From positions 1 through 64,000 of the forward strand of contig NZ_SMRQ01000007.1 in assembly GCF_004359965.1 (NCBI RefSeq): DNA of 64,000 nt. The letters are read 5' to 3'. Positions 1,500 to 43,082 of this stretch are shown piece by piece (the first letter of the stretch is position 1; each line of letters begins with the position of its first letter). The notes under the pieces were generated by a model. It was not told where the DNA came from. It was given only the letters and a program-made list of their open reading frames with translations, and searched no databases. Both the position numbers and the translations under genes were made by a program. The DNA is from Cognatilysobacter segetis (lineage in GTDB: Bacteria; Pseudomonadota; Gammaproteobacteria; Xanthomonadales; Xanthomonadaceae).

Positions 1500-2846
1500 A
1501 TGGCCGACGCCCAGCCCTCCGTCCTCATCGTCGACGACGACATCCCGTTCGCGTCCGCCGCCGCCGATTTCGCGCGTGCCCACGGCTTCCAGGCGGCGAT
1601 CGCGCACTCGCTGGAGGAATCGCGGCGCGCCATGGGCCGGGGCATGAGCGACCTGACGATGCTGGACGTGACGCTGCCCGACGGCACCGCCTTCGACCTG
1701 CTCGACGAGCTCGACGCCGGCCAGCACAGCCGCATCGCGCTGATGACCGGCGAAGCGTCGGTGGAAAACGCGGCGCGTGCGGTCGGACTGCCGCTGCTGG
1801 ACTACCTGCTCAAGCCGCTGTGTCCGCAGCAGTTCGAATCGCTGCTGGACCAGGCCTCGTCCAGGACGCGCGCGCTCCGCGACACGCCGCCGCTGAAGGG
1901 GCTGGTCGGCCAGTGCGACGCGATCCGCCAGCTCTCCCACGACCTGCAGCGGGTCGCGCCGACGCGGGTCTCGGTGCTCATCACCGGCGAAAGCGGAACC
2001 GGCAAGGAACTCGTCGCGCGCGCCGTCCACGAGCACAGCCGGCGTCGCGGCAGCTTCGTCCCCGTGAACTGCGGCGCGATCGCGCCCGACCTGCTGGCCA
2101 GCCACCTGTTCGGTCACGAGCGCGGCAGCTTCACGGGCGCGCAGCAGCGGCATGTCGGCTTCTTCGAGCAGGCCCACCGCGGCACCCTGGTCCTCGATGA
2201 AATCACCGAGATGCCGCCGGCGCTGCAGGTCTACCTGCTGCGCGTGCTCGAGACCGGCGAGGTGACGCGCGTGGGCGGCAGCGAGAGCGTGCCGGTCGAC
2301 GTGCGCATCGTCGCCGCGACCAACCGCGATCCCGTGCAGTCCATCGAGCAGGGCCGACTGCGCGAGGATCTGTATTACCGCCTCGCGGACTTCGTGGTGG
2401 CACTGCCGCCGCTGCGGGCGCGCGGCAACGACGTGGTGCTGCTCGCGAATGTGTTTGTCGACCTGCTCAACGAGGAGCACGGCCAGCAGCGCCATCTCGC
2501 GCCGGATGCGGAACGCATGCTGCTGCGGCACGGCTGGCCGGGCAACGTCCGTGAACTGCGCAGCGTCGTCCAGCGCGCATACCTGCTCTCCGAGGGCCCG
2601 CTCGTGCACGTGCCAGCCCTCGGCCGGCGCGCCCTGCCCCTGCATCAGGACGAGAGCAGCATCGTGTTCCATGTCGGCATGAGCTATGCGGACGTGGAGC
2701 GCGAAATGCTGCTGAAGACGCTGGCGAAGGTCGAGGGCGACAAGACCGAGGCGGCGCGCGTGCTGGGCGTGAGCGTTCGCACGATCCACAACCAGCTCGC
2801 CCGCCTGTCCATCGCGGACGGCGAAGGCGCCGCGTCGCATGCATGA
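1500..2846 (+). CDS. sigma-54-dependent response regulator (NtrC family)
   Basis: A 448-residue bacterial enhancer-binding protein that would hydrolyse ATP to remodel sigma-54 RNA polymerase. The receiver domain (about 1-120) has the acidic pocket VDDD (12-14), phospho-acceptor D56 in MLDVTLPDG and a conserved K in LLKPL. The AAA+ domain has Walker A GESGTGKE, the sigma-54-contact loop as GSFTGA (family consensus GAFTGA) and Walker B LVLDEI. The C-terminus is a Fis-type helix-turn-helix ending VSVRTIHNQLARL. I took the ATG at 1500 because MADAQPSVLIVDDD is a normal receiver start. No histidine kinase gene is adjacent. The last codons overlap the next gene, and an RpoN promoter lies at 5074-5088, so the BON/prion-like gene is a plausible target. 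Confidence 0.93.
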   Translation: MADAQPSVLIVDDDIPFASAAADFARAHGFQAAIAHSLEESRRAMGRGMSDLTMLDVTLPDGTAFDLLDELDAGQHSRIALMTGEASVENAARAVGLPLLDYLLKPLCPQQFESLLDQASSRTRALRDTPPLKGLVGQCDAIRQLSHDLQRVAPTRVSVLITGESGTGKELVARAVHEHSRRRGSFVPVNCGAIAPDLLASHLFGHERGSFTGAQQRHVGFFEQAHRGTLVLDEITEMPPALQVYLLRVLETGEVTRVGGSESVPVDVRIVAATNRDPVQSIEQGRLREDLYYRLADFVVALPPLRARGNDVVLLANVFVDLLNEEHGQQRHLAPDAERMLLRHGWPGNVRELRSVVQRAYLLSEGPLVHVPALGRRALPLHQDESSIVFHVGMSYADVEREMLLKTLAKVEGDKTEAARVLGVSVRTIHNQLARLSIADGEGAASHA

Positions 2847-3066
2847 TGCTTTTCCGCCCGGCGCGCCGCGGCCGCCGCCGCACTACACCGGGCGCTGGCG
2901 GCACGACCTGTCGAACGAGGTCAACGCGGTGACGATGGCGACGTCCGCCGCACGCCACATGATCCAGATGGGCGATATCCCCGCGGCGATGATCAACCTC
3001 GCGCGTGCCGAGGATGCGGCGATGCGATGCATCGACCTGCTGCGCCACATGCCACCGTCGCCGTAG
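2839..3066 (+). CDS. 75-residue protein resembling an isolated histidine-kinase DHp/H-box helix
   Basis: I do not recognise a named family. The ATG lies 8 bp inside the regulator gene, so the two are co-translated. After a Pro-rich start, residues 19-70 read like the first dimerisation helix of a histidine kinase: an H-box WRHDLSNEVNA, then a long helix containing ARAEDAAMRCIDLLRHM, resembling the spacing seen in HisKA domains. There is no ATP-binding domain, no membrane segment and no signal peptide. The inferred role is a phosphotransfer or regulator-binding partner of the upstream response regulator. A chance resemblance of a helical hairpin cannot be excluded. Confidence 0.7.
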   Translation: MHDAFPPGAPRPPPHYTGRWRHDLSNEVNAVTMATSAARHMIQMGDIPAAMINLARAEDAAMRCIDLLRHMPPSP

Positions 3067-3095: not shown

Positions 3096-3121
3096 AAAAG
3101 GCCCGCCGAAGCGGGCCTTTT
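3096..3121. terminator. bidirectional terminator between convergent genes
   Basis: An 11-bp stem, AAAAGGCCCGC/GCGGGCCTTTT, with a CGAA loop. Flanking A and T runs make it a usable rho-independent terminator for the forward regulator pair (ending 3066) and the reverse BON gene (ending 3138). Confidence 0.85.
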
Positions 3122-3137
3122 CCGTTCAACGCATCGC

Positions 3138-4883
3138 TCAGTGCTGCGAGCTGCTGCTACCGGTGCTACCGGTGCTGCCGGTCGTGCCCGACGTGCCGGT
3201 GCTGCTGCCGGTACGGCCCGCGGCGGAGCCGCCGTCCTTCGATCGCGACTGCGACGATGCCCCGCCCGCCTGCCGGCTGGCGTCATCCGACTGCGAGGCG
3301 CTGGTCGACGATCCCGACGCCCCCGACGACTGCGACCCGCTCGACTGGCCGCCGCTCATCGCGTTCGACTCGCTGCTGCTGCCCGAACGTTGCGACGATC
3401 CGGACAGCGAGCTGCTGCCTGCCGACTGGGACGAACCCGACAGCGAGCTGCTGCCGCTCGACTGCGAGGTCGCGACGCGGATGCGGTTGTCGATGTCGCG
3501 AACACCGGCGCAGGACTCGGCGATGTCCTCGACGCGGTGCTTCATCCAGCGCTGCTCGACGGTGCCTTCCAGCACGATCTTCCCGCCTTCGGAGCGCACC
3601 TCGACATCGGAGACATCGATGTCGTGCGCATTCATCAGCCGCTCGTTGAGGTCGTCGACGATGCGCTCGTCCGAACGCACGTAGTTCTTCGGCCCGCGGC
3701 CGCGGAACGAGCGGTTCTGCGACTGGTCGTAGCCGAACATGCCACCCTGGGCGCCCTGCGCGAACTGGCCGCTCCCCGAGCCCTGGCCGAACTGCGTCTG
3801 GCTGTTGCCCTGGAAGCTCGACTGCGAACGGTTGGAGTAGCCGCCGTCGCCATAGCCGCGTCCGGAGCCGTACTGCGACTGGCTGGAACCGAACTGAGAC
3901 TGACCGGGCCCGAACTGCGACGCGCCGAAGCCACTGCCCTGCTGGCCGCGATGCTGTCCGCCGTACTGCTGCTGCGAACCGTACTGCTGCTGCGAGCCCT
4001 GGCTCATCTGCGTGCTGCCGTAGTCACCCTGGCCCCGCCAGCTGGCAAACTCGGACTCGTGCTGCGCGTAAGGGCTGTTGTAGCCGCCGTGCACGCCCGT
4101 CTGCGAGGCACCGAAGCCGCCGTGCAGCTCGCCGCGGTCGCGCGCGGACTCGCTCAGGTAGCTGCCGCCCTGCTGCCCGTAGTGCTGCCCGTAGCCGCCC
4201 TGGGAACCGTAGCCCGAGCTGCTTCCGTAGCCCTGCCCATAGGAGCGGCCGCCCGACCCCTGACTCTCGCCGCCGTACGCGCCGTAGCCCGGCGTGCGCC
4301 CGTACTGCTCACCGAAGCCCTGCGACTGGCCGTGCTGCGAGCCGCCCTGCGTGTGCGAGCCGTACCCCTGCGACGCCTGGCCCTGCGAGCCATAGCCCTG
4401 CCCGTAGGACTGCTGCGAGCCGTGCGACTGCGCGCCCTGTCCATAGCCGGACGAACCGTAGGCCTGCTGCCCCTGGCCGTACTGCTGCGACGACCCGTAC
4501 GACTGGCCACCGCCTTGCCCGTACGGCTGGCTCGACTGGCCGTACTGCGAGCTGCCATAGCCCTGCGACCCCTGCGACTGCCCGTACGCCGAACTGCCGT
4601 AGCCCTGCGACTGGCCGTACTGCGAGGCCTGCCCCTGCGGCTGCTGCGAGCCGTAGCCCTGCCCCATCGAACTCTGCTGGCCGTAATCGGACGTGCCGTA
4701 ATTGCTCTGCCCGTACTGGTTGCCACGGCTGTACATCTCGCCCTGGTTCATCTGGTTGGTGTAACCCGGCTCCCACTGCCCGCTTTCGCGACCCGCGCCC
4801 TGGCGCGAAGCCTGCGCGTTCTCCGACTGATAGCCCTGCTGGCGACCGCCGGACTGCTGGTTGCCCTGATCGTGCTGCTGCAT
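3138..4883 (-). CDS. prion-like (G/Q/S/Y-rich) BON-domain protein
   Basis: A 581-residue protein in three parts. Residues 1 to about 395 are low complexity, dominated by Gly, Gln, Ser and Tyr, with about 30 Tyr-Gly dipeptides in units such as GYGSS, QYGQS and SYGQG; few aliphatic residues occur. Residues 402-470 form a BON domain, beginning VRSDERIVDDLNERLM and including VEVRSEGGKIVLEGTVE and VRDIDNRIRV. The tail (471-581) is Ser/Gly/Thr-rich with repeats like GSSSLSGSSQ. No signal peptide or membrane segment is evident. The ATG at 4883 has a perfect AGGAGG six bases upstream. A GTG at 4997 with GGAGG eight bases upstream would add a helical 38-residue segment ending WFNDRRQD. The composition resembles eukaryotic FUS/EWS prion-like domains. 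Function is unknown; BON domains commonly bind membranes or act in envelope stress. A consensus RpoN promoter lies upstream. Confidence 0.85.
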   Translation of the reverse strand: MQQHDQGNQQSGGRQQGYQSENAQASRQGAGRESGQWEPGYTNQMNQGEMYSRGNQYGQSNYGTSDYGQQSSMGQGYGSQQPQGQASQYGQSQGYGSSAYGQSQGSQGYGSSQYGQSSQPYGQGGGQSYGSSQQYGQGQQAYGSSGYGQGAQSHGSQQSYGQGYGSQGQASQGYGSHTQGGSQHGQSQGFGEQYGRTPGYGAYGGESQGSGGRSYGQGYGSSSGYGSQGGYGQHYGQQGGSYLSESARDRGELHGGFGASQTGVHGGYNSPYAQHESEFASWRGQGDYGSTQMSQGSQQQYGSQQQYGGQHRGQQGSGFGASQFGPGQSQFGSSQSQYGSGRGYGDGGYSNRSQSSFQGNSQTQFGQGSGSGQFAQGAQGGMFGYDQSQNRSFRGRGPKNYVRSDERIVDDLNERLMNAHDIDVSDVEVRSEGGKIVLEGTVEQRWMKHRVEDIAESCAGVRDIDNRIRVATSQSSGSSSLSGSSQSAGSSSLSGSSQRSGSSSESNAMSGGQSSGSQSSGASGSSTSASQSDDASRQAGGASSQSRSKDGGSAAGRTGSSTGTSGTTGSTGSTGSSSSQH

Positions 4884-5073
4884 GTCTTGCCTCCTGTCGT
4901 TGAACCAGTTTCGACCTGCGTTAAACGCCTCGGCGCCAAGGCGAACCACATCGTTCGCAACCTCGCGCAACTGGCGTCCCAACTGTTGATCACCCACCGT
5001 GCAGTCCTCCGTTGTCGGCTCGTCGGCGTTCGTTTGCATCGACCGCCGCATCGATTGCGTCAGGAGGTAGTCC

Positions 5074-5088
5074 GCAAGTCGCGTGCCA
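5074..5088 (-). promoter_or_regulatory. RpoN (sigma-54) -24/-12 promoter
   Basis: The reverse strand reads TGGCACGCGACTTGC, an exact match to TGGCAC-N5-TTGC with correct GG/GC spacing. Transcription would start near 5062. The leader would be about 180 nt to the ATG at 4883 or about 65 nt to the alternative GTG at 4997. It points at the prion-like BON gene. The stretch 4884-5278 otherwise holds only this control region and the upstream region of the divergent lipoprotein gene. Confidence 0.8.
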
Positions 5089-5102
5089 ACCGGAAGCGCG
5101 GC

Positions 5103-5119: not shown

Positions 5120-5278
5120 ACCCGGTTCGATGAGGATGTTGCGTTGCCGGGAATATTTTTCAGCGCAACGATCGACGCGCCCAACGAGGTGATCACGCCC
5201 GTTTGACGCCGCGCTGCCTTAACGTCTGCGACGGTTATGCCCGGGCACACGCCCTCCCCTCACGAGCGAGAAAACCCC

Positions 5279-5632
5279 ATGAAGAAGATGCTCTTCGTCG
5301 CAGCCACGCTGCTGGCACTCACGGCCTGCAACCGCGATCAGCAGGCCGACCAGTCGGCCACGACCGACACGACCGCCCCGGCCGCCGCGCCGGCGACGGA
5401 CACGACCGGCACGATGCCGGCCACCGACACCACGGGTGCGGGCACGTCGGCCGACATGACCGGCACGCCGGCCACGGGCACCGACACCACCGGCACGACG
5501 GGCACCGACATGTCGGGCACGACGGGCACCACCGGTACGACGGGTACGGACACGGGTACCGGCACGACGCCGCCGACCAATACCGATACGAACCAGCAGA
5601 ACAACGGCAGCACCACGCCGCCGACGCCGTAA
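5279..5632 (+). CDS. small Thr/Gly-rich lipoprotein
   Basis: A 117-residue predicted lipoprotein. The signal peptide MKKMLFVAATLLALTAC ends in lipobox LTAC with lipidated C17. The mature part is nearly all Thr, Gly, Asp, Ala and Pro, with repeated TDTTGT and GTTGTTGTTGT blocks, so it is likely disordered. I chose the ATG at 5279 because it begins the signal peptide; an upstream in-frame start at 5237 would put hydrophilic residues ahead of it. The gene diverges from the prion-like BON gene and shares its taste for Thr/Gly/Ser repeats. Function is unknown. Confidence 0.8.
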   Translation: MKKMLFVAATLLALTACNRDQQADQSATTDTTAPAAAPATDTTGTMPATDTTGAGTSADMTGTPATGTDTTGTTGTDMSGTTGTTGTTGTDTGTGTTPPTNTDTNQQNNGSTTPPTP

Positions 5633-5736: not shown

Positions 5737-8469
5737 CTACATCGGCAGCGGTTTGGCCTTCGCGATCATGCGCGCCGCCTCGTCGGGCATTCCTCGCTTC
5801 GCCGCGTCGGCGAGCGTGTAGCGCGCGGGGCTGCGCACACGCGACAGCTCGGCCCACGTGACCGGCACCGCCACCGGCGCACCCTTGCGCGCGCGCAGCG
5901 ACCAGCTCGCCACGCTGGTGGCGCCACGCCCGTTGCGCAGCCAGTCGATGAAGATGCGGCCGCGTCGCTTGGCCTTGCTCATGGTCGCGACGTAGCGATC
6001 GGGCGACTGCCGTTCCATCGCATCCGCGAAGGCTTCGCAGAAGCGGCGCACGGCGTCCCAGTCGGCCTCGGGCGCGAGCGGTGCCACCACGTGCACGCCC
6101 TTGCCACCCGAGAGCTTGGGAAACGAGTCGAGGCCCACGTCCAGCAGGCGGTCGCGCACGTCCCGGGCCGCCGCACGGATCTGCGGCCATTCGATCGAGG
6201 GGTCGGGATCGAGGTCGAACACGATGCGATCGGGCTGCTCGAGCGTCTCGATGCGCGAGCCCCAGGGATGGATCTCGAGCGCGTTCATCTGCACGAGCGA
6301 CATCAGGCCGGCCACGCTGTCGACGTAGAAGTACGTCGCCTCGTCGCCGTCGTTCTCGACCACCCGATACCGCTTTACTGCGTCGGTGAAGCCATGCTTC
6401 ACGTGCTTCTGGAAGAAGTGCTGGCCGTCGATGCCATCGGGACAGCGCACGATCGACAGCAGTCGCCCACCGATCTCCTCGAGCAGCATCGGCGCGACCG
6501 ACAGGTAATAGTTCCAGACGTCCTGCTTGGTGTAGCCCTCGTCGGGATACACGACGCGATCGGGACTGCTGAGTTGCGGCAGCGAGGACGTGTCGAGGTC
6601 GAATGCGGTGTGCGCGCGGCGCCTCGACACCGTCTTGCGCGCAGTAGTCGATTTCGACGCGGCGGAAGGTGTGGCCGCCTTGCGCGTCGACGACTTGGCC
6701 GCCGGGCGGGCCGCCTTCGTTGGCGCTTTTGCGGACGCCTTGCGCGCCTTTACAGCGCCCGGCTCGGGTTGCTCGAGCGCCTCGGGCGTCGCCGGCTTGT
6801 CGTCGCGGAGTCGATGGAACGAGGCCTGTCGCACGAGTCCCTCCTTGCCCCAGCCACGAAAGAACACTTCCACCACGAGGTCCGGTCGTACCCACTGGAT
6901 GCGACCCTTCGGCAGCGGCACGTGGCGCGGGATGTCCACCACCGGCTCGCCGACTTCCAGCGTTTTCAGCTGCTTCAGCAGGCCCAGCAGCATGTCGTTG
7001 TTCATGCCGGAGCCCACGCGGCCGGCATAGACGAGCGCGCCGTCCTTGTACTGGCCGAGCATCAGCGCGCCCAGGCCCTGCCGGCCGCCTTTGGGCGGCG
7101 TGTAACCGACCACCACGAAGTCGCGTGTCTCGGCCGTCTTGACCTTGAGCCACTGGTCCGACCGACCGTCGACATAACGGGACTCGGCGCGCTTGCTGAT
7201 GATGCCTTCCATGCCGCGCCCGCTCGCCGCCGCGAAGATCTCGGGGCCGCGGCCGACGATGTGCGTGCTGTAGAAGAACCGCGGGTCGGCGCCGTCAAGC
7301 AGCTTCTCCAGCAATGCCTTGCGTTCGACCAGCGGCACGTCCCGCAGGTCGTGCCCGTCGAGCGCCAGCAGGTCGAAAACCACGTAGCGCAGGCATCGGG
7401 CGTCCTTCTCCGACAACGCCTTCTGCAGCGCATTGAAATCGCTGTAGCCGGTGCGGTCGACGGCGATGAGCTCGCCGTCGAGCACCGCCGCCGCGCCGAG
7501 GCTCGCCAGCATGCGGATCAGCTCCGGCGCACGCTCGTTCCACGGGATCCCGTTGCGCGACCACAGCATCGGCGCGCGTCCGCTCTGACCCAGCAGGCGG
7601 TAGCCGTCCCACTTCCACTCGTGGATCCAGTCCTCGCCCGGCGGGGCTTTCTCCGCCGCGACCGTCAGCATCGGCTGCACGAACTCGCCCATCGGGAACT
7701 TGGCACCACCGGCAAGCTTCGCCGCCTGGCGCTTGAGCGTCCGCAGGTCGCGGGCGCCGGATTTGCCTGCCTTCGTCGTGCGCACGGCGCTAGTGCGCTT
7801 CGTCGCGCCGCGCTTCGCCGCGCTGGCGGCCTTGCCCGTGGCCTGCTTGCGTGCTTTCGGCATGGTCTCGTTTCCCGTATCGAATCCCCGTCCCGCGCGG
7901 ATCTCCAGTCCCTTCCTCGTCGACGCCCCGGGCGCGTCCGGCGGCGGCGCGGGAAGGTCGCCGATCAGGTCGTCGGCCTCCAGGTCGCCCGCGTATTCGT
8001 CGGTGCGCTTGAGCAGCATCCACTGCGCGCGACTGCCCTGCCGGTGCGTCCGGATCAGCGACCACCGGCCCTTGAGCCGCTGCCCCTCCAGCGTGAAGTC
8101 GATACGTCCCTTGCGGATCGACGCGTGCAGGTCGCCCTCGGGCGCCCAGGTGCCGTGGTCGAAGATCGCCATGTGTCCCGCGCCGTATTCGCCCTCCGGG
8201 ATCAGGCCCTCGAAGTGCGAGTACGTGAGTGGATGGTCTTCCGTCTCGACCGCCAACCGTTTCTCGCCGGGGCGGAACGACGGGCCGCGTGGCACGGCCC
8301 AGCTGCGCAGCACGCCGTCGATCTCGAGCCTGAAGTCGTAGTGACGCGCACGCGCATGGTGCAGCTGCACGACGAACGACAACGGCCCGCTACGGCGACG
8401 CGCGACGTCGCCCTTGGGCTCGGGCGTCTGCGAGAACCGCCGCTTGCGGTTGTATTCCTGCAGGCCCAT
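5737..8469 (-). CDS. ligD: multifunctional NHEJ DNA ligase LigD
   Basis: Repairs double-strand breaks by end processing and ligation together with Ku. The 910 residues carry three domains in the order phosphoesterase-ligase-polymerase, as in Pseudomonas LigD. The 3'-phosphoesterase (about 10-160) has QLHHARARHYDFRLE with metal ligands. The ATP-dependent ligase (about 255-540) has the adenylation motif KWDGYR with K286, and IISKRAESRYVDG. The primase-like polymerase (about 620-905) has VFDLDPDP with catalytic Asp near 752-754. Two Lys/Ala/Thr-rich linkers (about 205-250 and 565-620) separate the domains. The ATG at 8469 lies 3 bp after the ku stop, so ku-ligD form an operon. Confidence 0.97.
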   Translation of the reverse strand: MGLQEYNRKRRFSQTPEPKGDVARRRSGPLSFVVQLHHARARHYDFRLEIDGVLRSWAVPRGPSFRPGEKRLAVETEDHPLTYSHFEGLIPEGEYGAGHMAIFDHGTWAPEGDLHASIRKGRIDFTLEGQRLKGRWSLIRTHRQGSRAQWMLLKRTDEYAGDLEADDLIGDLPAPPPDAPGASTRKGLEIRAGRGFDTGNETMPKARKQATGKAASAAKRGATKRTSAVRTTKAGKSGARDLRTLKRQAAKLAGGAKFPMGEFVQPMLTVAAEKAPPGEDWIHEWKWDGYRLLGQSGRAPMLWSRNGIPWNERAPELIRMLASLGAAAVLDGELIAVDRTGYSDFNALQKALSEKDARCLRYVVFDLLALDGHDLRDVPLVERKALLEKLLDGADPRFFYSTHIVGRGPEIFAAASGRGMEGIISKRAESRYVDGRSDQWLKVKTAETRDFVVVGYTPPKGGRQGLGALMLGQYKDGALVYAGRVGSGMNNDMLLGLLKQLKTLEVGEPVVDIPRHVPLPKGRIQWVRPDLVVEVFFRGWGKEGLVRQASFHRLRDDKPATPEALEQPEPGAVKARKASAKAPTKAARPAAKSSTRKAATPSAASKSTTARKTVSRRRAHTAFDLDTSSLPQLSSPDRVVYPDEGYTKQDVWNYYLSVAPMLLEEIGGRLLSIVRCPDGIDGQHFFQKHVKHGFTDAVKRYRVVENDGDEATYFYVDSVAGLMSLVQMNALEIHPWGSRIETLEQPDRIVFDLDPDPSIEWPQIRAAARDVRDRLLDVGLDSFPKLSGGKGVHVVAPLAPEADWDAVRRFCEAFADAMERQSPDRYVATMSKAKRRGRIFIDWLRNGRGATSVASWSLRARKGAPVAVPVTWAELSRVRSPARYTLADAAKRGMPDEAARMIAKAKPLPM

Positions 8470-8472
8470 GCA

Positions 8473-9360
8473 TCAGGCCCGCTTGGTGGCGCGCTTCTTC
8501 GCCTTTGCGCCCGTCGACTTGCGTGCGCGCGTGGCCTTTTTCGCGGGCTTCGGCGTGCCACCGCCCTTCTTGTCCAGGCTCTTCTTGAGCAGCGACATGA
8601 AGTCGACGACGTTGGTCGCCGTCTCGGCGTCCTCGTCCTCCTTCTCCTCCTCCACGTGCGCGGTGTGCTTCTGCTTGATGCGCTCCTTGATCACCTGCGA
8701 CAGGCGCTCGCGGAATTCGTCCTTGTAGTCGGCCGGGCTGAATTCGTCGGTCATCGACTCCATCAGCATCTCCGCCATCTCCATCTCGCGGGGGGTCACA
8801 TGCCACGCGCGGGCGCTGCCCGAAGGGAGCTCGTATTCGGACGCCTCGACGACCTCCTGCGGGAAGCGCATCAGGATGAGCATCAGCGCGTCGTCCTGCG
8901 GGGCCAGCATGCAGAGGTATTCGCGCGTGCGAATCACTACGCGGCCGATGCCGACGCGGCCGTTCTTCTTGAGCACCTCGCGCAGCAGCACGTAGCCCTT
9001 TTCGGCCTTCTTTCCCGGCACCAGGATGTAAGGGCGCTCCAGGTAGGACAGCGGAATCGACTCGGCGTCGACGAACGACTCGATCGCAATCGTCTCGTGG
9101 TTCTCGGTCGCCGCGCGCTCGATGTCCTCCGGCTGGAGGATCACGTAGTTGTCCTTCGAGAACTCGTACGCCTTCACGATCTCCTTCCACGGCACTTCCT
9201 CGCCGGTTTCGGCGTTGACGCGCTCGTAGCGGATCGGCGAGTTGTCGCGCGCGTCGAGCATCCGGAAGTGGATGTCGGTACGGCGTTCGCCGGACATGAG
9301 CTGGATGGGGATGTTGAGCAGGCCGAACGAGATCGAGCCGGTCCAGATGGGCCTCGCCAT
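8473..9360 (-). CDS. ku: DNA end-binding protein Ku
   Basis: The homodimeric ring protein that binds broken DNA ends and recruits LigD. The 295-residue product starts MARPIWTGSISFGLLNIPI, the family's usual N-terminus, and contains PWKEIVKAYEF and GVEE-like acidic stretches before the core ends near residue 255. The last 40 residues are Lys/Arg/Ala-rich (ending GAKAKKRATKRA), a basic tail seen in some bacterial Ku proteins and probably binding DNA. It is the first gene of the ku-ligD operon and divergent from the ArsC-like gene. Confidence 0.96.
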   Translation of the reverse strand: MARPIWTGSISFGLLNIPIQLMSGERRTDIHFRMLDARDNSPIRYERVNAETGEEVPWKEIVKAYEFSKDNYVILQPEDIERAATENHETIAIESFVDAESIPLSYLERPYILVPGKKAEKGYVLLREVLKKNGRVGIGRVVIRTREYLCMLAPQDDALMLILMRFPQEVVEASEYELPSGSARAWHVTPREMEMAEMLMESMTDEFSPADYKDEFRERLSQVIKERIKQKHTAHVEEEKEDEDAETATNVVDFMSLLKKSLDKKGGGTPKPAKKATRARKSTGAKAKKRATKRA

Positions 9361-9463
9361 GCGGGCGTCTCCAACGGGTTTGCCGCACCGTCGCGCAGGC
9401 GGCGTACTCGCCGGGTGAAGCGGGCGCGCGATAATGCGCTCGCCGCCCATCCCAGGAAAACGC

Positions 9464-9832
9464 ATGTCGTCCGAGCGCCCGGTGCTGTTCCACAACAAGG
9501 CCAGTTGCTCCAAGTGCAGCGGGGCGCTCGCCCTGCTGCGCGAGCGCGGCATCGAGCCGGAGCTCGTCGACATCACGTTGACGCCCCTGTCGGCGTCGCG
9601 GCTTCGGGAGATCGCCGCCATGACCGGCGGCCCGGTGCGGAGCCTGCTACGTACCGGCGAGGCCGCCTACGAACGCCTCGGTCTCGCCGATCCCTCTCTC
9701 GACGACGACGCGCTCGTCGAGGCGATGGCAGCCCATCCCGAACTGGTGGAGCGGCCGCTGCTGGTGCACGGCGGACGGGCGGTGGTGGGCCGTCCGCCGG
9801 AACGCGTGCTTACGCTCTTCGACGCGTGCTGA
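9464..9832 (+). CDS. ArsC/Spx-family thioredoxin-fold protein (arsenate reductase-like)
   Basis: A 122-residue ArsC-family protein. The N-terminus VLFHNKASCSKCSGAL places a Cys at the ArsC active-site position, with a second Cys three residues on (CSKC), unlike the CSKSR of E. coli YfgD. The family features GIEPELVDI and RPLLVHGGRAVVGRPPE are present. The ATG at 9464 follows AGGAAAA. No other ars gene is near, so an arsenic role is doubtful; a general thiol oxidoreductase is equally possible. Confidence 0.85.
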   Translation: MSSERPVLFHNKASCSKCSGALALLRERGIEPELVDITLTPLSASRLREIAAMTGGPVRSLLRTGEAAYERLGLADPSLDDDALVEAMAAHPELVERPLLVHGGRAVVGRPPERVLTLFDAC

Positions 9833-9835
9833 GCG

Positions 9836-11455
9836 TCAGATGAGCTTGCTCGCACGGCGCGCCGCGACGCGCGGCGGCGGCGCGAACGAATCGCTGCGCG
9901 CATCCGCCCAGTACGCCTGGAACACGGCGTGGTCCGGCACGCCGCGGAGCAGCGCACCCGGCGCGAGGGAGTTGTAGATCGCCGCGAGCGAGCGCACCTC
10001 GACGGGCGATACGCGCCGCAGGATGTGCTCGGGTCCCAGCTCGCCGGGGTGCCGCAAGCCCGCGGCGCAGATCAGGTCGCGTAGCGCCTTCAACGTGTTC
10101 TCGTGGAAGTTGTGCACCCGCACCGCCTTGTCGGGCACGTCGAGCCCCCTCCAGCGCTTGGGATCCTGCGTCGCCACGCCGGTCGGGCAGCGGTCGGTGT
10201 GGCAGCTCTGCGCCTGGATACACCCGAGCGCGAACATGTAGCCGCGACCGGCGTTGCACCAGTCCGCGCCCATCGCCATGGTGCGCGCGATGTCGAAGCC
10301 GCTGATGATCTTGCCCGCCGCAGCGATGCGGATCCGGTCGCGCAGGCCGAGCCCGACCAGCGTGTTGTGCACCAGCATCAGCGCCTCGTGCATCGGTACG
10401 CCGACGTGGTCGATGAACTCGGCGGGCGCGGCACCCGTACCGCCTTCCGCACCGTCGACCACGATGAAGTCGGGCAAGAGGCCGGTTTCGTGCATCGCCT
10501 TGGCGATGCCGAACCATTCCCACGGATGCCCGATCGCGAGCTTGAAGCCCGTGGGCTTGCCACCCGACAGCGTGCGCAGCCGGTCGACGAACGCCAGCAG
10601 GCCCTTCGGCGTGTCGAACGTGGAGTGCCGCGCCGGCGACACACAGTCGACGCCGACCGGAACGCCGCGCGTGGCGGCGATCTCCGGCGTCACCTTCGCA
10701 CCCGGCAGCATGCCGCCGTGCCCCGGCTTCGCGCCCTGGGAGAGCTTGACCTCGACCATCTTCACCTGCGGATCGGCGGCCGCGGCGGCGAACTTCTCCT
10801 CGCTGAAACTCCCATCCTCGTTGCGGCAGCCGAAGTAGCCTGAAGCCACCTCCCACACCAGATCGCCGCCGAACTCGCGATGGTAGGGCGAGATCGAACC
10901 TTCGCCCGTATCGTGCGAAAAGCCGCCCATCTTCGCGCCGCAGTTGAGCGCGCGGATGGCGTTCGCCGACAGCGAGCCGAAGCTCATCGCCGAGATGTTG
11001 AACACGCTGGCGGAGTACGGCTGCGCGCGGCCCTCGCCGACGACGACGCGGAAGTCGTGCGGCATGTATTCCGACGGCTGCAGCGAATGGTTGATCCATT
11101 CGTAGTCCGGGCCGTAGACGTCCTGCAGCGAACCGAAGGGCCGGGTGTCGAGCACCGACTTGGCGCGCTGGTAGGCCAGTGCGCGCTGCTGCCGGGAGAA
11201 CGGCGTCTCCGCGGTATCGGCCTCGATGAAGTACTGCCGCATTTCGGGACCGATGGACTCGAGCCCGTAGCGGAAGTGCGCGAGCAGCGGATAGTTGCGA
11301 CGCAGCGTGCTGCGCGTCTGCAAGAGGTCCCAGGTGCCGAGCGCGGCGAACGGAAGCAGCACGGCCAGCACGATGCCGCCCTGCCCGAACGCGAGCACCG
11401 CGACCAGCGCGGCGAGGGTTGCCACCACCACGGCGATGTACAGCGCGTATCTCAT
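9836..11455 (-). CDS. membrane-anchored FMN-binding glutamate synthase-family protein
   Basis: The 539-residue product resembles the FMN/central domain of GltB without the glutaminase domain. Residues 1-45 form two hydrophobic segments that would anchor it in the inner membrane. The barrel contains NISAMSFGSLSANAI, GAKPGHGGMLPG, DGAEGGTGAAP and the cysteine cluster C-x5-C-x4-C (CIQAQSCHTDRC) that binds a [3Fe-4S] centre in glutamate synthases. The ATG at 11455 has GGAGG five bases upstream. No gltD partner lies nearby, so the electron donor and substrate are unknown; simple glutamate synthase activity is unlikely. Confidence 0.88.
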   Translation of the reverse strand: MRYALYIAVVVATLAALVAVLAFGQGGIVLAVLLPFAALGTWDLLQTRSTLRRNYPLLAHFRYGLESIGPEMRQYFIEADTAETPFSRQQRALAYQRAKSVLDTRPFGSLQDVYGPDYEWINHSLQPSEYMPHDFRVVVGEGRAQPYSASVFNISAMSFGSLSANAIRALNCGAKMGGFSHDTGEGSISPYHREFGGDLVWEVASGYFGCRNEDGSFSEEKFAAAAADPQVKMVEVKLSQGAKPGHGGMLPGAKVTPEIAATRGVPVGVDCVSPARHSTFDTPKGLLAFVDRLRTLSGGKPTGFKLAIGHPWEWFGIAKAMHETGLLPDFIVVDGAEGGTGAAPAEFIDHVGVPMHEALMLVHNTLVGLGLRDRIRIAAAGKIISGFDIARTMAMGADWCNAGRGYMFALGCIQAQSCHTDRCPTGVATQDPKRWRGLDVPDKAVRVHNFHENTLKALRDLICAAGLRHPGELGPEHILRRVSPVEVRSLAAIYNSLAPGALLRGVPDHAVFQAYWADARSDSFAPPPRVAARRASKLI

Positions 11456-11511
11456 GCGGCCTCCTCCGATTGCCCGAGCATACGCGGGCGGCTGGAGGGC
11501 GCCGTCGACGT

Positions 11512-11883
11512 TCAGGGGTCGCCGAGCGTCGCGTGCCAGTCCGCATACGGGGAGTCGCGCGCCAGCCGGCGCGTGAGGTCCGGCGAGCCGTCGCCCCACC
11601 AGACGGGCCCGCGTTCGCCCAGCGCCACCTTGGCCGCCTGCACGCGGCGACGCGCGCGCCGTTGCGCCGCGGCGTCGTTCTCCGCCAGTGCGCGACCGAC
11701 GTCGCGTCGTGCCTGCATCAACTCGTGGGTGAGACGCTCGCGAGTCGCATCGTCGAGCCTCGGATCGGCACGCCGCCACAACCGGCCGCGCACCACGATG
11801 TAACGGCCGTCGGGCGTGACCGGAGGCGTTCCGCCGCCCGACCGAACCGCCGCGCCCGATTCAGGCGGCGCTTTCCGGGGCAT
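11512..11883 (-). CDS. conserved protein of unknown function
   Basis: A product of about 123 residues with no signal peptide or membrane segment. The middle reads DGRYIVVRGRLWRRADPRLD, followed by a long Arg/Ala-rich helix and a C-terminus ERGPVWWGDGSPDLTRR...TPYADW-like. I recall similar uncharacterised proteins in other proteobacteria but no function. The start is uncertain: the ATG at 11883 overlaps the end of the upstream gene by 23 bp, and no better start follows before the conserved part. Confidence 0.65.
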   Translation of the reverse strand: MPRKAPPESGAAVRSGGGTPPVTPDGRYIVVRGRLWRRADPRLDDATRERLTHELMQARRDVGRALAENDAAAQRRARRRVQAAKVALGERGPVWWGDGSPDLTRRLARDSPYADWHATLGDP

Positions 11884-41747: not shown

Positions 41748-41762
41748 CCGGGGTTGCGACAC

Positions 41763-43082
41763 GTGCCGATCCGCCGTCTCGCGGCCCTGCTGCTGGCCTG
41801 CGCCCTGTCGTGGCTCCCTGCCCTCGCCGCGGCGAAGGATGGCGCGTGGATCGCGCAGGCCGCCGGCGTCAAGGCAGCCGCGACACCGACGCGCAGCGAT
41901 ACGCAGCTCGCGCGCGCCGTGGCGGCGCGCGTGCACGCGGTGCCCGGCTTCAATTCCGTCACGGTCACCTCGTCCGGCGGCGTGGTGCGGCTCGAAGGGT
42001 CCGTCGGCGATCCCACCGACCGCGCGCATGCCGAGCAGATCGCCGCGCAGCAACCGGGCGTCGCCTCGGTCGACAACCGCCTGCAGATCGCCGGCGGCGT
42101 TCTCACGCGTTTGCAGCTCTCGCTTTCGCAGGTCTACGGCAAGCTGATCGGGCTGGTCGCGCGCCTGCCCCTCCTGCTGGTCGCGGCGCTCATCGTGCTG
42201 GTCGCCGGATGGATCGGCCGCGCGATCAGCCGGCGTATCCATCTGTCGCGCTTCAGCGCCAAGAACCCGTACATCGACTCGCTCGTCGCACGGCTGGTGA
42301 ACTGGCTCGTGCTGCTGATCGGGCTGCTCATCGCGCTCGACCTGCTGGAGGCGACCGCCGTGGTCGGCGCGGTACTCGGCTCGGCCGGCGTCGCGGGCAT
42401 CGCGATCGGCTTCGCCTTCCGCGACATCGCCGAGAACTACGTGGCGGGCATCCTGCTGAGCCTTCGTCGCGGTTTCGCGCCCGGCGACCACATCCTCGTC
42501 GACCGGTACGAGGGCAAGGTGGTGGCACTGACCTCGCGCTCGACGCTGCTCATGACCTTCGACGGCGTGCACGTCGCCGTCCCGAACGCGCTGGTGTTCA
42601 AGTCGGTGGTGAGCAACTTCACCCAGAACCCCAAGCGGCGCTTCGAGTTCACGATGGTCATCGACACCAACGAATCGGTCCGCGAAGCGCAGGACGTCGC
42701 GCTGGCCGCCATGCGGGACGTCGACGGCGTGATCGACGACCCGGCCACGGCATCGGCCGTCGACGGCTACCTCGCCGGCGGCATCCAGCTCAAGTTCTAC
42801 GGCTGGGTGAACCAGCGCGAGAGCGACCTCGGCAAGGTGCGCAGCGAGTCGCTCCGCGCGGTGAAGGCGGCGTTCGAGAAGGCGGAGATCGACGGCCCTC
42901 GCCCGGTGCGCTACATGTTCACCTCGCCACTGCCCCCGGCGGTGGCGCATCGGATCGGCATGGAGATCGCCGCGCCGGAACCGTCCGAGCCGGAGGGCTG
43001 CGGCGACACCTCGGTCAACCGCGACATCGACGCGCAGGTCGACGCCCAGCGCGCGGCGCACGACGACGAGAACCTGATCTAG
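41763..43082 (+). CDS. BON-domain mechanosensitive channel of the MscS family
   Basis: A 439-residue precursor. A signal peptide (about 1-25) leads to a periplasmic BON domain (about 45-110; VTVTSSGGVVRLEGSVGDPT and VASVDNRLQI), then three or more membrane helices and an MscS core with VLGSAGVAGIAIGFAFRDIAENYVAG-type pore helix and FAPGDHILVD. The N-terminal BON-MscS fusion would place the BON domain outside the inner membrane. The GTG at 41763 is preferred to TTG at 41754 because the GGGG Shine-Dalgarno-like bases abut the TTG. Confidence 0.88.
   Translation: MPIRRLAALLLACALSWLPALAAAKDGAWIAQAAGVKAAATPTRSDTQLARAVAARVHAVPGFNSVTVTSSGGVVRLEGSVGDPTDRAHAEQIAAQQPGVASVDNRLQIAGGVLTRLQLSLSQVYGKLIGLVARLPLLLVAALIVLVAGWIGRAISRRIHLSRFSAKNPYIDSLVARLVNWLVLLIGLLIALDLLEATAVVGAVLGSAGVAGIAIGFAFRDIAENYVAGILLSLRRGFAPGDHILVDRYEGKVVALTSRSTLLMTFDGVHVAVPNALVFKSVVSNFTQNPKRRFEFTMVIDTNESVREAQDVALAAMRDVDGVIDDPATASAVDGYLAGGIQLKFYGWVNQRESDLGKVRSESLRAVKAAFEKAEIDGPRPVRYMFTSPLPPAVAHRIGMEIAAPEPSEPEGCGDTSVNRDIDAQVDAQRAAHDDENLI

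Follow-up and report, generated by a model that had tools for sequence, protein, structure and literature searches.

A BON-domain protein of Cognatilysobacter segetis with an evenly tyrosine-patterned low-complexity domain and a sigma-54-type promoter: a candidate stress-induced condensate protein

Computational analysis of the window (the whole 64,000-nt stretch of Cognatilysobacter segetis DNA) revealed the gene of a 619-aa protein, hereafter BON-LCD, in which a conserved N-terminal helix, a Gly/Gln/Ser/Tyr low-complexity domain (LCD) with evenly spaced aromatic residues, a single BON domain and a Ser/Thr-rich tail follow one another. A sigma-54-type promoter precedes the gene, and a gene for a sigma-54-dependent response regulator lies nearby. 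On sequence grounds, BON-LCD qualifies well as a candidate bacterial condensate protein induced by stress. The explanation that we prefer, and to which we give roughly an even chance, is that of a cytoplasmic BON stress protein made on demand by the sigma-54 regulator, which would self-associate through tyrosine stickers, with its helix and BON domain as tethers. The protein is relevant to the question of whether Tyr-patterned prion-like domains serve bacteria in the way that they serve eukaryotes. The gene, its parts and the adjoining repeat are as follows.

3138–4997, minus strand: BON-LCD gene (619 aa), beginning with GTG and closed by a TGA stop; genus relatives conserve both the start and the helix
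5005–5010, minus strand: GGAGGA, ribosome-binding site for BON-LCD
4866–4997, minus strand: N-terminal amphipathic helix, aa 1–44, heptad-like (L6 L10 V13 V17 L20 A24 A27 W31)
3705–4862, minus strand: Gly/Gln/Ser/Tyr LCD, aa 46–431, with 38 Tyr, 11 Phe, 2 Trp and 30 Tyr-Gly
3471–3704, minus strand: lead-in GRGPKNYxRSDERI and BON domain (Pfam part 3471–3674)
3141–3470, minus strand: Ser/Thr-rich disordered tail with a C-terminal His common to many relatives
3096–3121, no strand assigned: perfect inverted repeat aaaaggcccgc-cgaa-gcgggcctttt, found by sequence inspection

The initial annotation had placed the gene at 3138–4883, which is correct in all but the start: translation begins at GTG 4997 on the minus strand, and the codon aligned to it is GTG in seven and ATG in one of eight genus sequences. 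The start at ATG 4883 was rejected because conserved residues extend upstream of it; this codon is internal to the conserved helix, and the AGGAGG that precedes it codes for two helix residues. Neither the N-terminal helix nor the sigma-54 promoter nor the regulator had been noticed in that account. The inverted repeat is probably a two-way terminator, to judge by its sequence, that separates the regulator operon from the BON-LCD gene.

The AlphaFold model of BON-LCD, built with 27 sequences, consists of a helix (aa 4–44), a stretch without structure (aa 49–434), a BON fold (about aa 435–512) and an unstructured tail. The pLDDT values are 72–89 per block over aa 1–40, below 50 over aa 49–280 and 282–434, where the LCD is predicted to be disordered, and 94–96 per block in the BON domain, for which an alpha-beta-beta-alpha-beta order is predicted (helix 443–456, strands 465–470 and 473–480, helix 483–495, strand 501–508). 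In the helix, W31 is invariant and L10, A14, G21 and M39 are nearly invariant among 21 sequences, and for the 18-residue stretch with the highest hydrophobic moment the shuffle p was 0.0014, computed with a provisional scale and uncorrected for the choice of this stretch. A BON domain followed by a Ser-rich tail, as described earlier, was confirmed: PF04972 scored 46.5 bits against a gathering cut-off of 27, Ser and Thr make up 52% of the tail, and in the whole protein nothing but BON matched Pfam at E ≤ 1.

BON-LCD shares a folded BON domain with OsmY, DolP/YraP and Kbp/YgaU, and only OsmY (E-value, 0.0019) and YraP (0.22) were matched among PDB sequences at E ≤ 1 in a phmmer search. The periplasmic BON proteins OsmY and DolP carry two BON domains, whereas BON-LCD has a single BON stretch by Pfam and, by inspection of its conserved N-terminus, neither the Sec signal peptide nor the lipobox of those proteins. 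It further differs from OsmY, DolP and Kbp in its N-terminal helix, its Tyr-patterned LCD of about 390 aa, its GRGPKNY lead-in and an RWMKH signature. Curli- and Fap-like proteins are compatible with a Gln/Gly/Ser/Tyr composition, and export of BON-LCD as a functional amyloid or adhesin of this kind into the biofilm matrix would fit it too; however, the absence of a signal peptide by inspection, the charged amphipathic N-terminus, the absence of a curli or Fap match in Pfam and the absence of a secretion family among ten other scanned ORFs of the window make this explanation very improbable. BON proteins often have disordered termini according to a review (PMC11747388), so that disorder in such proteins is itself already known.

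Two other BON-containing frames were observed. At G000:C34:34466-34774, the same genome also encodes a short additional GRGP-BON family member (open frame of 233–303 aa), and at 41754–43082 of the window a BON domain is joined to an MscS-type mechanosensitive channel, with long open frames overlapping on the opposite strand.

The first 395 residues counted in the initial annotation, which described them as almost entirely Gly, Gln, Ser and Tyr, contain 104 Gly, 86 Gln, 67 Ser and 38 Tyr; the bias is thus real, and its extent is 74.7%. The LCD also has 13 Arg, 15 Asp and Glu together and no Lys, and at 2.6% Asn an Asn bias is absent. The Tyr-Gly dipeptides, estimated earlier at about 30, number exactly 30 in these 395 residues and likewise 30 in aa 46–431, where the shuffle mean is 10.2, and the coefficient of variation of the gaps between aromatic residues is 0.47 versus 0.90 after shuffling, none of 500 shuffles being as even. 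The best 60 residues reached a PLAAC-like score of 51.4, calculated from provisional frequency tables and not with the program itself, and 13 control ORFs of the window, several of them not verified genes, ranged from −19 to 2 with the same tables. The LCD matched no Pfam family at E ≤ 1. Slippage of DNA repeats was rejected as its origin: tandem repeats in the DNA of the region are few and short, both codon families contribute to Ser, Tyr-Gly is written with seven hexamers, and GC3 is 0.90, which together indicate that the bias is maintained at the level of the protein.

BON-LCD resembles the FET proteins (FUS, EWSR1, TAF15) in being rich in Ser, Tyr, Gly and Gln, with many tyrosines (38). 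The likeness to this family that had been pointed out stands for composition and tyrosine patterning, with disorder predicted, and fails for RRM, RGG repeats and homology: no RRM was matched in Pfam at E ≤ 1, RGG repeats were not seen by inspection, and FUS was not matched among solved structures by phmmer at E ≤ 1, a test weakened by the composition filter. In contrast to the FET proteins, BON-LCD is bacterial, has a BON domain and a helix instead of RRM and RGG, and appears to be under sigma-54 control. By these sequence criteria it is a true BON protein, neither of the OsmY/DolP type nor a member of the FET family, and by analogy it may work like FET proteins. Clostridium botulinum Rho is reportedly a bacterial candidate prion-like protein. 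With the bacterial candidates treated in a proteome survey (PMC4606120), BON-LCD shares a predicted disordered domain of apparently prion-like composition, but it differs in its Gln/Tyr/Gly/Ser bias without Asn, its periodic Tyr-Gly, its BON partner and the 70% GC of the surrounding DNA. For prion-like domains, excerpts from the literature set out a stickers-and-spacers logic (PMC10850361) and mention 27 Tyr-to-Ser changes in the FUS domain (PMC11116469).

Matches to BON-LCD were found in 21 of 60 related genomes (own genome included, E ≤ 0.001), the weakest being barely more than a BON match. A class-wide search at E ≤ 1e-15 matched 5 of 229 genomes, again including its own, which makes close family members rare outside Lysobacteraceae. 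In a scan of named genomes at least 567 stretches were confirmed, of which the best 80 were kept; these are mostly from Lysobacteraceae and Burkholderia, and among the matches listed Lysobacter xinjiangensis and L. lacus are the nearest relatives.

Aromatic spacing was significantly even (p ≤ 0.05 against shuffles) in 14 of 16 orthologues. Among the best 80 of at least 567 stretches, where starts were assigned automatically, eight entries were unscorable and three helix-bearing ones were assigned by eye, it was so in 27 of 36 helix-bearing and 10 of 36 other relatives. A Gln-rich polar LCD (Gly, Ser, Gln and Tyr ≥ 60%, Gln ≥ 12%) was present in 8 of the 36 helix-bearing and 3 of the 36 other members of the same set, and in the linkers of the others Arg, and likewise Asp plus Glu, reach about 20%. 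With 27 against 8 of the 36 helix-bearing relatives, even aromatic spacing is commoner than FUS-like chemistry. The LCD had been interpreted as a prion-like domain fused to BON, a view that is not upheld: going by these sequences, BON-family members across Lysobacteraceae widely carry a disordered linker with patterned Tyr, and it is mainly the spacer chemistry that is unusual here. As the patterning recurs and the polar spacers are often replaced by Arg, Asp and Glu, the FUS-like composition represents one end of a family continuum and not a fusion.

Within the genus, mean conservation in the LCD is 0.58, with Arg (0.71) and Tyr (0.69) above and Ser (0.47) below it; the excess of Tyr over Ser is modest evidence, since aligners favour Tyr. 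Three islands with a 15-residue mean identity of at least 0.75 to five genus orthologues were found.

4665–4814, minus strand: conserved LCD island, aa 62–111
4077–4121, minus strand: conserved LCD island, aa 293–307, GGFGASQTGVHGGYN
3813–3845, minus strand: conserved LCD island, aa 385–395, GGYSNRSQSSF

These islands, together with the even spacing in 27 helix-bearing relatives, argue against an LCD that only spaces the helix from the BON domain and in which just length and solubility matter. Such an entropic linker would agree with the high variability of length and spacer chemistry between genera and with the nine of 36 scored helix-bearing relatives (best 80 of at least 567) that lack significantly even spacing; on balance we consider it improbable.

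Upstream of the BON-LCD gene, two putative control elements were identified.

5073–5089, minus strand: sigma-54 −24/−12 promoter TTGGCACGCGACTTGCG (GG-N10-GC), exact upstream of the orthologue in six of eight genus genomes
5193–5206, minus strand: candidate activator dyad TCAAACGGGCGTGA, upstream of the sigma-54 promoter

The sigma-54 consensus has GG-N10-GC within TGGCAC-N5-TTGC, and the site lies 75 nt ahead of the start codon of BON-LCD. In its own genome the pattern has eight matches versus three for the reversed control; genes read by eye without HMMs at these sites are BON-LCD, flgB, glnA, flhF and fliE, the last four being known sigma-54 targets, and at the remaining three of the eight the gene was not recognised. 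Pooled over the eight genus genomes, 91 matches stand against 61 reversed ones, and therefore the pattern alone proves little and the case for the promoter rests on position and conservation. At 59 further genus loci (not all of the 91 sites were read) more glnA, flgB, flgF, flhF, fliE and pilin genes and two KGG genes were seen, along with many sites without a recognisable gene. In one genus genome (G003) the regulator is missing, the promoter is degenerate and the dyad is intact; in another (G001), where the orthologue lies on a short contig downstream of the apparent end of a dehydrogenase gene, the site is absent.

Across the best 80 of at least 567 loci, the upstream or 5′ region contains 25 sense sites versus 2.24 expected from the rest, and none reversed. 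No more than 200 nt from the chosen start, a site is present in 18 of 33 loci with a flanking regulator homologue and in 3 of 47 without one, so that by the assigned starts the exact site is absent from 15 of the 33; the Fisher value of this association (3e-6) is inflated, as the loci are related and not independent. In its own genome rpoN has two matches, and several activators are present too.

In five genus members the dyad precedes the promoter by 103–128 nt. It occurs seven times in the eight genus genomes, five times at the BON-LCD promoter and twice elsewhere in its own genome, where no sigma-54-like site was found within 400 nt; three genus genomes lack it, and the reversed control gave no match. 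Because the dyad was discovered at the BON-LCD promoter, only its rarity elsewhere is informative. As a family-wide motif it was rejected, having not been found outside the genus.

The neighbouring genes include the following.

1500–2846, plus strand: sigma-54-dependent response regulator with receiver, AAA+ and Fis-type HTH (Pfam)
2839–3066, plus strand: 75-aa helical-hairpin protein, overlapping the regulator stop, with an H-box-like WxHxLxNExN
5279–5632, plus strand: divergent gene for a Thr/Gly-rich small lipoprotein, start ATG 5279 by inspection; LPAM_1 below its cut-off

Eleven of the 17 orthologue neighbourhoods, some of which lie on short contigs, include a homologue of the regulator, in variable orientation; two of the eleven come from another family of the order. 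Its best NCBIfam match, PrsR (TIGR02915), was rejected at 332 bits against a cut-off of 502.6. The regulator has the receiver-AAA+-HTH layout of NtrC-type regulators such as PrsR, but here the apparent target is a BON protein. In the 75-aa protein W-x-H and N-E-x-N are invariant among 12 aligned sequences, and its model has helices at 15–44 and 47–69 (mean pLDDT 87). It matched no Pfam family, and a fold search returned generic helical hairpins only (best E-value, 0.79). Since the fold search is uninformative, it is the H-box-like motif that points to a possible stand-alone histidine phosphotransfer (DHp-like) partner.

Further genes with a sigma-54 site in front were seen in relatives, where they encode KGG stress-motif proteins, a zinc dehydrogenase, a DUF4142 protein and a lipoprotein rich in Thr and Gly. 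This lipoprotein (locus L042) resembles the 5279–5632 neighbour, and the positions of the sites suggest a stress regulon around the BON-LCD gene. No exact site was found for the divergent lipoprotein gene itself or at two KGG genes read in the same genome. The occurrence of this promoter type before KGG stress proteins and a lipoprotein would suit the main rival explanation as well, namely that BON-LCD is a desiccation protectant of the hydrophilin/LEA type, whose disordered polar chain serves as a molecular shield and whose BON domain docks on membranes, the Tyr spacing being incidental. Its 21.6% Gly, its GRAVY of −1.22 and the LEA-like look of the charged relatives agree with such a role, but even Tyr-Gly spacing and conservation of Tyr are unexpected for a pure shield, and we regard this explanation as a serious contender that is nevertheless unlikely.

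Under the preferred explanation of an on-demand, self-associating BON stress protein, a signal would activate the adjacent response regulator, which would then switch on the BON-LCD gene from its dedicated −24/−12 promoter, and the protein would accumulate in the cytoplasm. The evenly spaced Tyr-Gly motifs and a few conserved Arg would act as stickers and Gln, Ser and Gly as soluble spacers, a layout from which we propose that the protein self-associates when concentrated or short of water, forming a reversible condensate or gel. Tethering by the helix may proceed via oligomerisation or membrane contact. Other BON proteins make phospholipid or envelope contact, and the BON domain would probably tether through the same. 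Condensation, tethering, regulator binding and the stress role are what we infer from the architecture, patterning and its conservation, promoter and regulator linkage obtained by computation.

A bolder version, speculative and in our judgement rather doubtful, is a two-component sigma-54 switch that makes a FUS-like scaffold for a membrane- or envelope-tethered stress condensate, with the Tyr-sticker grammar kept and the spacers retuned per genus between polar Gln/Ser and Arg/Asp/Glu; a C-terminal His, shared with certain KGG proteins that have this class of promoter, would then mark its clients or members.

Across the family, sticker spacing is often preserved while spacer chemistry changes, a natural series that, with named cultured relatives and a single candidate each for promoter and regulator, makes the use of such domains in bacteria open to direct tests. 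The answer could also show what an uncharacterised sigma-54 regulator and the cytoplasmic BON proteins do. In the literature searched, which covers few subscription journals, neither a description of the BON-LCD protein nor work that links BON domains to sigma-54, to phase separation or to KGG proteins was found; the paper listed for BON domains in Lysobacter is a soil survey, and no BON domain appeared among the matches listed on prion-like or low-complexity bacterial proteins or on Xanthomonas and RpoN.

Other features of the region were recorded as well. LigD adjoins the BON-LCD orthologue in six of seven other genus stretches, and the non-homologous end-joining pair LigD and Ku (5737–9621), which adjoins the BON-LCD gene here, is kept in several genus members. 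At 9810–11546 a 578-aa open frame without a Pfam match shows 55–65% identity in five fetched stretches; it may represent a conserved gene read in the wrong frame.

A C-terminal His is present in 42 of the 80 family members (best 80 of at least 567), compared with 22 of 577 other long ORFs from the same loci and the window. Its codon is CAC in 30 and CAT in 12 cases, and the stop codon is variable too. Of 30 KGG loci, 24 gave a row, with two lacking an assigned start set aside, one of which ends in HH; the protein ends in His in three of six with a sigma-54 site (L212, L219 and L168) and in one of 18 without. The residue is absent from the L042 lipoprotein and also terminates the L142 dehydrogenase.
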